From a virus, in IMG/VR virus record IMGVR_UViG_3300038441_000168, positions 1 through 56,220 of that record: a DNA stretch of 56,220 nucleotides. One strand, written 5' to 3'. Made by a program: the position numbers and the translations under genes. Shown piece after piece: positions 2,875-56,220 of this stretch (its first letter is position 1; each line of letters begins with the position of its first letter). The notes below the pieces were generated by a model. It was not told where the DNA came from, made no database searches, and saw only the letters and a list, made by a program, of their open reading frames with translations.

Positions 2875-3093
2875 GTGAAGAGCGCGCCCATTAAGGGTTA
2901 CCGGGACCTGTCTCAGTCTGAGATTGACCTGATGAACAAGCTGAAGGATGTTGCCGTAGAGGTAGGCAATTGGGTTGACATCGTTCTGGATGACCCAGAC
3001 ACCGATAAGAGGTGGGCAAACATTGCCAAGACGGATCTCCAGAAGGGCTTCATGTCCCTCATCCGAGCGGTAGCACAGCCGGAAACGTTCTAA
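2875..3093 (+). CDS. acb2: Acb2-like anti-CBASS cyclic-nucleotide sponge
   Basis: Seventy-two residues from a GTG that directly follows the upstream TAA, with AGAAGG before it. The pattern Lys-Gly-Tyr-Arg-Asp-Leu-Ser-x-x-Glu-Ile near the start, a long helix, then Arg-Trp and a closing Lys-x-x-x-Leu-Gln-Lys-Gly-Phe-Met-x-Leu-x-Arg-Ala-Val-Ala-x-Pro is how I know the Acb2/Tad1 hairpin family. Acb2 proteins form helical-hairpin oligomers that bind cyclic di- and trinucleotides and blunt CBASS (and Thoeris) immune signals. The assignment is by remembered family pattern, not by a search. Expression from the capsid operon would make the sponge when capsid-triggered immunity matters. Confidence 0.72.
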   Translation: MKSAPIKGYRDLSQSEIDLMNKLKDVAVEVGNWVDIVLDDPDTDKRWANIAKTDLQKGFMSLIRAVAQPETF

Positions 3094-3102
3094 GGAGTTT
3101 GA

Positions 3103-3594
3103 ATGGCCTATGCAACTGTTGCAGACGTAGAAGCAAGGCTGGGTAGGTCACTCGATACGTCCGAACAGACGATTGTTAATACCCGGCTAAACGATGTTGA
3201 ACTTCTTATCCGAAACAAGATCCCCGACCTGGACTCCAAGATTTCTTCGGGTGTAATCGATGTTGAAGTTCTCATCATGGTGGAGTGTGAGTCGGTTCTC
3301 CGGCTCATCAAGAACCCAGATGGCTACACCGCAGAGACTGATGGCAACTACTCGTATCAGATTTCAGCCAAGGTAGCTTCTGGTCGATTGGACATCCTGC
3401 CAGAGGAGTGGGCGCTACTGGGGATCAAGAGTGGTGCATTCACCATTCGACCTGACCTTAGCCCTTACTACACCAACTGTAGCTACCCTTGGGAGAATGT
3501 AAGCCGCCCTTTTGCTGATTTCCCGGCATGGGATAGGACCGCTCACCCTTGTTGGTGTGAGTTCGTGACGGGAGATATCAAGTGTCCTTGCTAG
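3103..3594 (+). CDS. Head-tail connector protein (gp15/Gp19-like adaptor)
   Basis: A 163-residue protein with GGAG upstream. It opens with Met-Ala-Tyr-Ala-Thr-Val-x-Asp-Val-Glu-Ala-Arg-Leu-Gly-Arg, the usual start of Gp19/Gp15-type adaptors that form the ring below the portal. The rest is helical, followed by an extended C-terminal tail rich in aromatic residues and Cys. It is followed by other small connector genes with overlapping stops and starts. Confidence 0.82.
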   Translation: MAYATVADVEARLGRSLDTSEQTIVNTRLNDVELLIRNKIPDLDSKISSGVIDVEVLIMVECESVLRLIKNPDGYTAETDGNYSYQISAKVASGRLDILPEEWALLGIKSGAFTIRPDLSPYYTNCSYPWENVSRPFADFPAWDRTAHPCWCEFVTGDIKCPC

Positions 3595-3941
3595 ATCGAG
3601 GCAGGGAAACCGTTATTGTATTCCCTGAAGAAGTCTACACAGACCCAGATGGCAATGTCCTTCGTAGGCCTCAAGCCACAGGAATCACCGTGAGCAATGC
3701 AGCAGTTCAGCTCATGGCACAATCTGGTACGTCCAGCCGTCGCTCTGAGCAGGACAACGAAGGCCTAGAAACCGAAGAGGTCTACAGGCTGCGCCTGCCA
3801 CGATCCTATTCAGGCCCCGTAATCGGGGCTCATGGTCGTGTGGAATGGCGTGGTCTTTCATGGTCCGTAATTGGTAAGGAACGTCGGTACAACGGCTCCC
3901 CCAGGACTGGTCACATCGACTATACCCTGAGGAGGAACTGA
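3582..3941 (+). CDS. Head closure / stopper-like protein
   Basis: A 119-residue protein with a GTG start inside the end of the adaptor gene (13-base overlap). Predicted to be mostly beta: the last third alternates short strands with Gly-x-His-Gly-Arg-Val-x-Trp-Arg-Gly and ends with a basic tail. Size, order and strand-rich sequence match stopper proteins that seal the head after DNA filling. Function inferred from gene order. Confidence 0.65.
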   Translation: MSLLDRGRETVIVFPEEVYTDPDGNVLRRPQATGITVSNAAVQLMAQSGTSSRRSEQDNEGLETEEVYRLRLPRSYSGPVIGAHGRVEWRGLSWSVIGKERRYNGSPRTGHIDYTLRRN

Positions 3942-4270: not shown

Positions 4271-4689
4271 TGCCGCCAATCACACGTAAGATGAAGAGGA
4301 TCCAAGAAGTGGTTCTTCCTCTTCTGAGGGACCGCCTTGACCCTTCTATTGAAGTGGTCTCCTGGGGTGCAGACATCCTGGACCGCACATTCCCGTACAT
4401 CATGATCCGAAGGCTAGGAGGGCTACCGGTTGACGTCGATCTTCTTGACCGACCAGTTATTGAGATGACCGCCTATGGCCGTGAAAGCCTAGCCGCCACA
4501 GAAGATTTGTATCTGGACGCCCGACAGGTCCTTTGGGAAGCCTGGAAGAACCAGACGGTAGTTCCCACAAAGGGATACATCCACTCGTATTTCGAAACCC
4601 TAGGACCCACCCAGTTCGACTCCCCATGGGACGACACCTGGCGGATTCAGGGCCTGATCCAGTTGGGCCTACGCCCGGCGAAGAATTAG
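4270..4689 (+). CDS. Tail terminator protein
   Basis: A 139-residue protein translationally coupled to the previous gene. An N-terminal helix is followed by a strand reading Tyr-Ile-Met-Ile-Arg-Arg-Leu-Gly-Gly, a hallmark of actinophage tail terminators, then Asp-Arg-Pro-Val-Ile-Glu. It should cap the tail tube when it reaches the length set by the tape measure and join it to the head. The gene precedes the major tail gene, as expected. Confidence 0.75.
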   Translation: MPPITRKMKRIQEVVLPLLRDRLDPSIEVVSWGADILDRTFPYIMIRRLGGLPVDVDLLDRPVIEMTAYGRESLAATEDLYLDARQVLWEAWKNQTVVPTKGYIHSYFETLGPTQFDSPWDDTWRIQGLIQLGLRPAKN

Positions 4690-21225: not shown

Positions 21226-21403
21226 CAAGCTTCTCCAATTCATCTTCGTTGAAGGGCCACCGGAAGGGGGCCATGCCAAAGTAGTCAAACTCAACGATCA
21301 CAGGCCAGAGCTTGTGAGGTTCATAGTCGTAGACCGTGCCGACCAGTCCATTGATCTGATCACCCGGCAGGTTTACAATCACTTCCTCACCTACCTCAAA
21401 CAT
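21218..21403 (-). CDS. Small SH3/KOW-like protein
   Basis: Sixty-one residues: Phe-Glu-Val-Gly-Glu-Glu-Val-Ile-Val-Asn, then Gly-Leu-Val-Gly-Thr-Val-Tyr-Asp-Tyr. Same beta-barrel opening as 13661 and 20914, so these three are likely related by duplication. Overlaps both neighbours. Confidence 0.66.
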   Translation of the reverse strand: MFEVGEEVIVNLPGDQINGLVGTVYDYEPHKLWPVIVEFDYFGMAPFRWPFNEDELEKLDD

Positions 21404-22064
21404 AGTACCCCCTCTCTTGAATCAGCTTTAGCATGTCTTCTCGGGTATGGGTGTTGTCGTACTGGTGACACAAAGCAAAGTTATTCTTGCTCATTGTTCC
21501 TCTACGACTTGGGTCGTGCCACAAACACCGAAGCGTCAATGGCACGGGACGGGAGTCCCCACCAAGGATATGAATACTTCTCCGGAAAGCAGCATCCTCT
21601 CCTCCCCAACCTTCAAATCGCTCATCATGCCCACCCGACTCCAGGTACAAGTCTCGACGGATGAGCATGATTCCAGTCTGAAAGGGCACGGTATATTGGG
21701 GATCGGTGTCTTCGGATTCCCATCTACGGGTAGACAGGATTCGATTCGTTGCTTCCGCATTGAAGTACTCTGTTCTGTCACCTACAGGGACCCATGAAGC
21801 GTCCCGGTCCTTCAACAACCGGAGAGCCACCTTCAGGGTGTCGTGGCCTGGGATGATGTCTGCCCCTACGGTCAGAAGGTAGGGCTGTGTGGACTTCTTG
21901 AAAGCGTCGTTGCAGGCCTTGGCAGTATTGAAGGGTCCATCCTCAGCATCTACACCTTCGCAGACCTCAACGCCTTGCTTCTCCCACTCAGACTTGCAGT
22001 ACTCCCAGACCCCGATACGTTGGGGATCTTTGGATCTCCAGGGAACAAGAACACTAACATCCAT
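21396..22064 (-). CDS. GT-A glycosyltransferase (GT2/GT7/GT27-like)
   Basis: About 222 residues from ATG 22064 with AAGGGGGA upstream. Val-Ser-Val-Leu-Val-Pro-Trp-Arg opens the GT-A fold, Val-Gly-Ala-Asp-Ile-Ile-Pro gives a D-x-D-like metal site, and Phe-Glu-Gly-Trp-Gly-Gly-Glu-Asp-Ala-Ala-Phe matches the galactosyl-type acceptor motif. Together with the GT4 at 1737 the phage has two sugar transferases. In the early block this one could modify DNA bases, host envelope or proteins; the acceptor is not visible. Confidence 0.82.
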   Translation of the reverse strand: MDVSVLVPWRSKDPQRIGVWEYCKSEWEKQGVEVCEGVDAEDGPFNTAKACNDAFKKSTQPYLLTVGADIIPGHDTLKVALRLLKDRDASWVPVGDRTEYFNAEATNRILSTRRWESEDTDPQYTVPFQTGIMLIRRDLYLESGGHDERFEGWGGEDAAFRRSIHILGGDSRPVPLTLRCLWHDPSRRGTMSKNNFALCHQYDNTHTREDMLKLIQERGYYV

Positions 22065-22128
22065 CCTGTTCCCCCTTCTCGTCCTCCTCTTCACAACCCC
22101 AAATGCAGTCATCATCGTCAGGACCCAT
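22054..22128 (-). CDS. 24-residue acidic microprotein
   Basis: Starts at a TAATG overlap and encodes 24 residues, 12 of them Asp or Glu, with three Cys (one at the end). It overlaps the start of the glycosyltransferase gene by 11 bases. Mostly a coupling peptide by position; function unknown. Confidence 0.42.
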   Translation of the reverse strand: MGPDDDDCIWGCEEEDEKGEQDGC

Positions 22129-31725: not shown

Positions 31726-32664
31726 TCAAAAATTCCCCTCATTCACTTGGAAAACCGGAAGGCTGATAGAACGCCATGCCTTGACCACACGGTCACGGTC
31801 ATCGTAAACACCAAAGATGTTGTACTTACCTCGGATGTTCTGGTCAAACAGTTCGAGCTTCACAATGTCGTCACGTCGGGTGTCACCTTCAGGCCTCATG
31901 AACAGGCCCTCGATCGGCACCTTCACGTGCTCATAAAGCCACTGCTCGGTAACCCCTCGGAAAGCAGCATCTCGTCCGGAGACAAAGATGACCTTCTTGG
32001 GGATCGTTCGATAAGCGTAATCCTGAACGACCTTGATGACGTCCCACCTCGGCTGATCGAGGTGGTATCTGCTGGTGTCGTAGGGATCACGAATACCTTC
32101 GTGTGAGGCAACCGTCCCATCAATGTCCACGATGATGGCCTCAGGAAGCCCTGGACCCCATCGATAGGGGTCATGACCCTCGGGAACCTCTTTCAGGGCC
32201 TCTGTGAGGCTCTCAGGGGTCTCTACGGGCACGTTGCCATGGAAGAACGTCCGGTGGTAGTACCGGATGAATTCGATGCCGACAGAACGTTCTCCGTCCT
32301 GCCGCCTGATGTCGTCCCGTTGCACGCAGTGTTCTAGTGGGACGTGAGTCAAGTCGATGTACCGCAAAGGCACACCAAGGCGAACCGCAACCTTGGCCCA
32401 CTTCTGGCGATACTTCCTCCGGATGTGCATTGCGTCGATGATGACGTTCTTGCCCTGCTCAACGGCGCTCTCAACCATGGTCTCTTCCACGCGAGTAACC
32501 ATCTGTTCCTGAGGGGTCGAGTAGTTGGTGTTTTCGCCGAAGTAAGCCTCTCTGATGTCGTCACGAGAGACGATCACTGTGTTTGGCTTCAGCCGTCGCT
32601 CCTGCTTGGCCACGGTGGACTTCCCAGAAGCAGGAAGTCCGATCATCAACGTAATACTAGCCAT
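31726..32664 (-). CDS. T4-type polynucleotide 5'-kinase/3'-phosphatase
   Basis: A 312-residue protein with the T4 Pnkp layout. N-terminal kinase: Gly-Leu-Pro-Ala-Ser-Gly-Lys-Ser-Thr (P-loop), a DxR-like segment, and lid Arg. C-terminal HAD phosphatase: Ile-Val-Asp-Ile-Asp-Gly-Thr (nucleophile Asp), Phe-Val-Ser-Gly-Arg, and Tyr-Asp-Asp-Arg. It heals cut RNA ends by adding a 5' phosphate and removing a 3' phosphate so a ligase can reseal them. In T4 this repairs tRNA cut by host PrrC. Confidence 0.92.
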   Translation of the reverse strand: MASITLMIGLPASGKSTVAKQERRLKPNTVIVSRDDIREAYFGENTNYSTPQEQMVTRVEETMVESAVEQGKNVIIDAMHIRRKYRQKWAKVAVRLGVPLRYIDLTHVPLEHCVQRDDIRRQDGERSVGIEFIRYYHRTFFHGNVPVETPESLTEALKEVPEGHDPYRWGPGLPEAIIVDIDGTVASHEGIRDPYDTSRYHLDQPRWDVIKVVQDYAYRTIPKKVIFVSGRDAAFRGVTEQWLYEHVKVPIEGLFMRPEGDTRRDDIVKLELFDQNIRGKYNIFGVYDDRDRVVKAWRSISLPVFQVNEGNF

Positions 32665-33182: not shown

Positions 33183-33367
33183 GGTGCCTCCACCTCGGTT
33201 ACAGATCCACCGTCGCGCTCAACGACCCGCTTGAGTTGATCGGCATCGGAGCCAATGCTCTTGAGCCACGTGCCAGTTACCGGAGACAACATCTCAAGTC
33301 CATCTTCGCCATCTCGGTAAAGATCCCCGTTGGGGGCGAGATCATCAACCACCTTGAAGTACTTCAT
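33179..33367 (-). CDS. Hypothetical 62-residue protein
   Basis: Strand-rich: Tyr-Phe-Lys-Val-Val-Asp-Asp, Gly-Thr-Trp-Leu-Lys-Ser, ending acidic. Overlaps the Rnl1-like ligase by four bases, so the two are made together. Unknown. Confidence 0.6.
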   Translation of the reverse strand: MKYFKVVDDLAPNGDLYRDGEDGLEMLSPVTGTWLKSIGSDADQLKRVVERDGGSVTEVEAP

Positions 33368-34431
33368 CGCTTCTCTCCTGTCGGTCGGACCATCTTCCAG
33401 ATCATTTCGTGGTAGCGCTTGTAGTCTTTATCCATCAACAAGAAGATCCCATGAGACAACCATGGCGGGAACTCAGACACAAGTTCGGCCATGAGGTCAC
33501 GGAACTCGTGCCAGCCCTCTTCTCGGATTTCCAACCACCTCTCGGTGATGTAGAGGTCCCATTCACAGAACTTGTTGCACAAATCCTGCAAGACTGGCAA
33601 AGCCCAGTCGTGAAGCTCCTCGGGAATATCCATCAGGATTTCCTCGATTTCCCTACCCTGGTAAAGCCACTTCCACAGCTGCTTCTTGTTCAATCCAGTG
33701 CAGATCTTGTGGAGTTCCAGGTAATCCTTCTGCTTGATCTTCACTCGAATTTCTTTACTGGACACCTTGAGAACCATTCCCTCTCGGTTCTCCCTGTCGG
33801 CAAGCTTTAACACGTCCTGGAGTTCTTGTATGTGCAGAAGCTGAGGAGTCGGGAAGGGGTGCCCAATCAACTGAACTCCCTGGTGACCCCATGAGATACC
33901 CGTCTCGTTGTTCATGATGCCCAACAGGAACAGATCATCCACATCGTGGTAATCAAGAACAATCCGGTTGTCGGGGTAAATGATCTCGAAGAGTGCAGTG
34001 GTGCCGTACGGGGCTTCCCACTCGTCGTACCGCTCCCTAAGAAGTCTGGTGGCATGAACGGCCTGTGGTGATTGGAAAGAATTCTTGGTGGCAATAGCCG
34101 GGCCGTCAGGCGTGTTATACAGAATGCCCAACGACCCATCCAACTTATCGAACGCCAGAACCCTCGTGGTTGGCTTCAACTCAGGACAAGAAGGCTCTCC
34201 GTAGTTGAAGAACTTGGCGAATGGACGTGCGGTTACAAGTCCAGTCTCGGTGTTCCAGATCAGGCCCCGGCAGGTGCGGGTTTCATGAGTCCATGCTTGT
34301 TCCCACATGGTCTGTTTGGTGTAGCACTCGGAAACCAGAGGAAGCGTGGGGTGTGTAGCCTGGCGGATATACCCGTCACGCCTCATCTTGTTAAGTTCGT
34401 TGACGTCGAGGATATCTTCCAGCTTCGTCAC
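33364..34431 (-). CDS. RNA ligase, T4 Rnl1-like
   Basis: A 355-residue protein. Arg-Gly-Leu-Ile-Trp is an N-terminal signature, Phe-Asp-Lys-Leu-Asp-Gly-Ser is motif I with the AMP-accepting Lys, Phe-Glu-Ile-Ile-Tyr-Pro-Asp-Asn is motif III, Arg-Glu-Gly-Met-Val-Leu is motif IV, and Val-Lys-Ile-Lys is motif V. It joins 5' phosphate to 3' OH in RNA, especially in loops such as anticodons. With Pnkp at 31726 it recreates the T4 tRNA repair pair. Confidence 0.9.
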   Translation of the reverse strand: MTKLEDILDVNELNKMRRDGYIRQATHPTLPLVSECYTKQTMWEQAWTHETRTCRGLIWNTETGLVTARPFAKFFNYGEPSCPELKPTTRVLAFDKLDGSLGILYNTPDGPAIATKNSFQSPQAVHATRLLRERYDEWEAPYGTTALFEIIYPDNRIVLDYHDVDDLFLLGIMNNETGISWGHQGVQLIGHPFPTPQLLHIQELQDVLKLADRENREGMVLKVSSKEIRVKIKQKDYLELHKICTGLNKKQLWKWLYQGREIEEILMDIPEELHDWALPVLQDLCNKFCEWDLYITERWLEIREEGWHEFRDLMAELVSEFPPWLSHGIFLLMDKDYKRYHEMIWKMVRPTGEKR

Positions 34432-55854: not shown

Positions 55855-56220
55855 ATGTCCGATGACAACACCACCGAGACGAAGGTAGTTACTGAGGAAG
55901 TAATTCCTGAGTGGGCTCGGAAGAAGATTACCGAAGCCAACAACGAAGCTGCTAAGTATCGGACGGAGAAGAACAACATCGAGGCAGAAACCACGGCCCG
56001 TCTTAAGGCCGAATTCGATGCTCAGTTTAAGGCGTTGTCGGACGAAAAGTCCGCAATTCTTGCGGAGCGTGATACCAGTGCACTCAACTACAAGAAGTTG
56101 AATGCCGCCCTGGCAGCCGGGGTTCCAGGTGAGACGGCTGTCAAGTTTGCAGGCCTGCTTCAGGGTTCTTCTGACGAGGAACTCGCGACGCACGCGGAGG
56201 AGCTGAAGAGCATGTTCGGC
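55855..56220 (+). CDS. Capsid scaffolding protein, N-terminal part
   Basis: ATG 55855 with AGGAGG upstream. Acidic, highly helical protein with Ala/Glu/Lys-rich repeats (Trp-Ala-Arg-Lys-Lys-Ile-Thr-Glu-Ala-Asn-Asn-Glu). It continues through the genome join to 189, giving about 184 residues. Position before the capsid gene and helical charge pattern fit a scaffold. Confidence 0.82.
   Translation, partial: MSDDNTTETKVVTEEVIPEWARKKITEANNEAAKYRTEKNNIEAETTARLKAEFDAQFKALSDEKSAILAERDTSALNYKKLNAALAAGVPGETAVKFAGLLQGSSDEELATHAEELKSMFG
56152..56220. repeat. 69-bp terminal overlap, right copy
   Basis: Identical to bases 1-69. See the left copy for interpretation. Confidence 0.95.

Follow-up and report, generated by a model that had tools for sequence, protein, structure and literature searches.

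A predicted Acb2-type signal sponge encoded in the capsid operon of an uncultivated phage related to cluster A mycobacteriophages

A 72-residue protein encoded between the capsid and head-tail adaptor genes of an IMG/VR virus record is a predicted Acb2-type signal sponge, and we give this reading a probability of roughly 0.85. The whole 56,220-base record was analysed and is referred to here as the window. With this assignment, the known range of the Acb2 sponge comes to include a group of uncultivated relatives of cluster A mycobacteriophages, where its gene is fixed between the capsid and adaptor genes. Its interest is modest, and comes from this fixed slot and from the exchange of alleles within it. 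The capsid region of the window contains the following genes:

202 to 1197, + strand: major capsid protein, HK97-type Phage_capsid (PF05065, 3.7e-20; PHROG_10, major head protein)
1237 to 1740, + strand: HNH endonuclease, a sporadic insertion not at this site in other group members (PF01844, 5.4e-10)
1737 to 2708, + strand: GT4-type glycosyltransferase, which precedes acb2 throughout the phage group (PF13439/PF00534; phrog_26352, 1.8e-83)
2692 to 2874, + strand: small DUF7302-like protein (PF23976, 0.0016, below cut-off; phrog_748, head-tail connector, 0.0014, weak)
2875 to 3093, + strand: acb2-like gene, 72 residues, Acb2/Tad1 hairpin (PF24729), predicted cyclic-oligonucleotide sponge
3103 to 3594, + strand: head-tail adaptor Ad1 (PF09355, 3.9e-14; PHROG_137, 9.1e-38)
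3582 to 3941, + strand: head closure Hc1 (PHROG_320, 2.8e-42)

The acb2 reading frame runs from a GTG at 2875 to a TAA ending at 3093, exactly where a sequence-only reading had placed a 72-residue protein on the + strand, and its product is MKSAPIKGYRDLSQSEIDLMNKLKDVAVEVGNWVDIVLDDPDTDKRWANIAKTDLQKGFMSLIRAVAQPETF. That reading had assigned the protein to the Acb2/Tad1 family from the motifs KGYRDLS and LQKGFMxLxRA; both were found, and they are the two most conserved blocks among 27 relatives (IKGYRDLSQ and TDLQKGFM). The family claim held up in a curated HMM, in sequence matches to solved Acb2 and in the predicted fold, whose nearest neighbors are Acb2 and Vs.4. The HMM of the Acb2/Tad1 hairpin, PF24729, matched at 3.3e-16 with 59.7 bits, about twice its curated cut-off of 27 bits. 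Searching the PDB with the protein sequence returned Pseudomonas phage Acb2 chains (8ixz/8h2j, 7e-14) and T4 Vs.4 (0.003). Judged from its sequence and its model, the protein is a recognisable small member of the known Acb2 family. It also matched PHROG 717 and 29522, two families without known function; the PHROG 717 profile has 289 positions and acb2 aligns to its C-terminal part, hinting at longer forms elsewhere. None of the PADLOC models matched the 72-residue protein. A tblastn search with acb2 (E <= 0.01) gave 241 phage records, and 207 acb2 loci were confirmed in IMG/VR. The ten organism names that occurred most often in the tblastn records did not include Mycobacterium, and the tenth had three records, so at most three Mycobacterium isolates with acb2 are recognised by this query.

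Comparison with known members placed the protein closest to the Pseudomonas type (PaMx33/PaP2 type, p26; PDB 8h2j, 8h2x and 8ixz), which a profile of the 27 relatives matched over its full length at 3e-23. Both have a short N-terminal arm, two helices, a C-terminal QPxxF and the blocks KGYRDLSQ and KTDxQxGxM, with 46% identity across the structural alignment, whereas the Pseudomonas protein is longer (about 93 residues) and the loop between the helices is shorter in the 72-residue protein. T4 Acb2 (Vs.4; 7uq2) shares the fold, but its profile match was just 4e-5. Tad1 (Thoeris anti-defence 1) belongs to the same Pfam hairpin family but carries an N-terminal antiparallel β sheet (PMC12043709). 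Since the 72-residue frame encodes the helical hairpin only, we regard it as Acb2-type; an identity as Tad1 was ruled out, as the β-sheet domain is missing and an in-frame stop directly precedes the GTG.

A single-chain AlphaFold model (pLDDT 89.6) showed an antiparallel two-helix hairpin, with helices at residues 14-39 and 45-67 and no extra domain, in line with the hairpin that had been expected from sequence. Residues 1-13 contained no helix and residues 1-3 were of low confidence; known Acb2 has a short N-terminal helix before the hairpin. In a Foldseek search of the PDB, ranks 1 to 8 were all Acb2 or T4 Vs.4 with a probability of 1.00, and the next best match had 0.20. VIA-align gave Z scores of 8.3 to 7uq2 and 8.0 to 8h2j (Pseudomonas Acb2), with unrelated helical hairpins just behind (CsoR, Z 7.3). 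Since ordinary hairpins come near Z 8, the fold counts for little by itself, and most of the weight is borne by the sequence.

Residues that affect ligand binding in solved Acb2 could be traced to the window protein. In T4 Acb2, Y8A disrupted dinucleotide binding (PMC12657218, PMC12657230), T68M decreased affinity (PMC12657230), and F82 stacks on the ligand (PMC12657218), F82C being the change reported at this position (PMC12657218, PMC12657230). T4 Y8 and T68 correspond to Y9 and T53 of the 72-residue protein, both invariant in the 27 relatives. The stacking F82 is replaced by A67, and PaMx33-type Acb2 likewise has Ala there. For PaMx33 Acb2, no residue-level mutants were found in the open literature; we take Y11 and K26 to matter for dinucleotides and R67 for trinucleotides. 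The equivalents are Y9, K24 and R46; among the 27 relatives the first two never vary and R46 hardly does.

By analogy with solved Acb2, the two-helix hairpin and short N-terminal arm would most likely assemble into a hexamer, with cyclic di- and trinucleotides held in pockets between protomers. In the known hexamer, three pockets take up cyclic dinucleotides while trinucleotides occupy two sites of their own, and this sequestration prevents the activation of CBASS effectors (PMC12043709, PMC10419184). During infection the window protein may thus keep free CBASS messenger too scarce to fire the cell-killing effector, and cA3, a signal common with type III CRISPR, might be lowered too. A sponge devoted mainly to another signal, whether the Thoeris messenger gcADPR that Tad1 binds or the type III CRISPR messenger cA3, is an improbable alternative. 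The hairpin family is common to Tad1, Acb2 binds cyclic trinucleotides tighter than dinucleotides (review PMC12043709), and the diverged, exchanged alleles described below would fit changing ligands. However, the gcADPR pocket of Tad1 uses loops and the C-terminal tail as well as helices, and Tad1 has an N-terminal β sheet (PMC12043709) that the 72-residue frame does not have; cA3 as a target would be compatible with Acb2 function, with which it overlaps.

The gene order in the window (major capsid, HNH, glycosyltransferase, DUF7302-like, acb2, head-tail adaptor) lies on a single strand, and with capsid, adaptor and head closure genes all in the same direction it bore out the earlier proposal that acb2 sits inside the capsid operon. 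Since a scan for sigma-70 promoters and terminators gave nothing exceeding shuffles, we infer the transcription unit from gene order. The stop codon of the DUF7302-like frame abuts the acb2 start in the same frame (TAA-GTG), suggesting that the two genes are translationally coupled. The same-frame abutment, TAA-GTG or TAA-ATG, was also seen in relatives L026 (about 4423-4430) and L008 (4806-5001). An HNH gene between the capsid and glycosyltransferase genes was found only in the window genome, and a relic of the C-terminus of the same HNH protein lies between acb2 and the adaptor gene of L026 (4646-4753); related HNH insertions thus appear to have struck both sides of the glycosyltransferase-acb2 block. 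A search for the glycosyltransferase among named phages returned only Streptomyces phage TurkishDelight, at 41%.

This placement would imply late expression of acb2 alongside the capsid. Phages deleted for acb2 escape CBASS through capsid missense mutations (PMC10419184), and because of this the supply of the sponge together with the capsid is a reasonable idea; such co-supply may matter. If true, placement in the head operon would couple the sponge to a capsid that provokes CBASS, and the fixed position makes the idea testable. In hosts with Panoptes, Acb2 activity serves as a trigger (PMC12657218, PMC12657230), so acb2 could carry a cost there.

Every IMG/VR relative whose capsid is 76% or more identical and whose slot can be read carries the glycosyltransferase and acb2, ordered as in the window; two contigs that stop short of the slot (L092 and L093) were left out of this count. 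The examined sister lineages (capsid 45-65%) have no acb2: it was absent from the more distant IMG/VR relatives with a readable slot (46-63%), L099-L112 among them, and from prophages L114-L119. Mycobacterium phage Froghopper has one hypothetical gene between capsid and adaptor and no acb2, in the interval that holds the HNH, glycosyltransferase, DUF7302-like and acb2 genes in the window. The simplest reading of these comparisons is that acb2 entered the slot once, early in the phage group, and was then kept. One small contig of 3.7 kb (L121), recorded as Algoriphagus aestuarii, carries an actinophage-like capsid, glycosyltransferase and adaptor without acb2, and is probably contamination of that assembly.

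Actinophages with acb2 were already known, as were phages that have the gene beside their head genes. Acb2 has been annotated in mycobacteriophages Xandras and BigBubba (PMC11953737) and in Microbacterium phage Statler as gp57 (PMC13348362). Xandras gp101, from a cluster E mycobacteriophage, matched PF24729 at 5.1e-16 but gave no significant direct BLASTP match to the window Acb2, and its gene adjoins a ClpP-like protease and an SSB gene, away from head genes. Statler gene 57 lies near the HNH gene gp54, with head and tail genes elsewhere (gp24 protease, gp35-36 tail chaperones) (PMC13348362). Unrelated phages in which acb2 adjoins head genes are Acinetobacter phage Ab9, a phage of Thiohalocapsa and the Vibrio phages H188 and 1.087.A, and a Microcystis phage has it close to its portal gene; these isolates were hand-picked and are not a random sample. 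Uniqueness of the capsid placement to the window phage was thereby ruled out. To our knowledge, T4 acb2 lies outside any capsid operon. A constant association with late genes was also ruled out, since a PHROG scan of the neighbors in 55 IMG/VR acb2 loci showed a mix of head/packaging and replication families among the 25 commonest families listed.

The position between capsid and adaptor in all group members would also suit a head or head-tail accessory protein that was recruited from the hairpin family, lost ligand binding and took on a structural role. We consider this highly improbable, because the sister phages and prophages named above, with homologous head genes, manage without acb2, relatives of acb2 in other phages adjoin replication or lysis genes, and neither Y9 nor T53, both at binding-site positions, varies among the 27 relatives.

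The sequences further show strong purifying selection on acb2, with pS of 0.59-0.62 and pN of 0.03-0.05 against relatives L002, L003, L004 and L008, giving a dN/dS of about 0.03-0.05 after a Jukes-Cantor correction by hand. A chance reading frame was ruled out by this selection together with the strong family match. Two allele types occur in the group, the A-type of the window and the B-type of L011. L004 and L026 are 97% identical in the capsid and 85-87% in the glycosyltransferase and adaptor, with Acb2 only 69%; L004 and the window share 78% in the capsid, 66% in the glycosyltransferase and 77% in the adaptor, yet 93% in Acb2. In the acb2 DNA tree L004 and L009 grouped with the window lineage (support 98/100) and the backbone grouping was rejected (p 0.0035), whereas in the glycosyltransferase tree the grouping of L004, L009 and L010 with the window lineage was rejected (p 8e-6); these groupings were picked after the identity tables had been seen, so that p-values lean low. 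The acb2 protein tree rejected the backbone grouping with group members alone (p 0.038) and did not reject it with distant outgroups (p 0.09). By these sequence comparisons, phage lineages have swapped acb2 alleles independently of the genes on either side. With synonymous sites close to saturation, the swapping must be old, and it may have run in either direction. Retention of acb2 together with independent exchange of its alleles is as expected under selection by host immunity rather than for a virion part, and the alleles exchanged in a constant slot offer natural variants for testing a change in ligand preference. A broader proposal, that acb2 and capsid form a trigger-antidote pair made in step, arisen independently in unrelated phages and with alleles swapped to match the host signal, is speculative and rather unlikely.

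The window carries an identical 69-bp direct terminal repeat (1-69 and 56152-56220), so it is probably a complete genome that was circularised and then opened a short way before the capsid gene. In capsid and terminase it shares about 63% identity with cluster A-type mycobacteriophages, and a capsid search gave 1,385 related phage records. Genomes of Mycolicibacterium, Nocardia, Segniliparus, Saccharopolyspora and Longimycelium contain relatives of its capsid gene at 61-64%, which makes an actinobacterial host likely. SMODS-family nucleotidyl cyclases were present in 29 of 299 genomes from the order to which Mycolicibacterium houstonense, one host of a related prophage, belongs, so plausible hosts may produce CBASS-like signals; no such cyclase was found in 6 genomes bearing distant relatives of the window capsid gene.

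The window also encodes a polynucleotide kinase/phosphatase (31726-32664, - strand; HAD_PNKP, 1e-45), a T4-type RNA ligase (33364-34431, - strand; PF09511, 9e-13) and nine tRNA genes, which together are likely an RNA-repair counter to tRNA-cutting defence. Genes for a polynucleotide kinase and an RNA ligase also lie close to acb2 in Xandras. Outside the structural operon, the window contains a second glycosyltransferase-like gene (21396-22115, - strand; PF02709, 8.4e-06).
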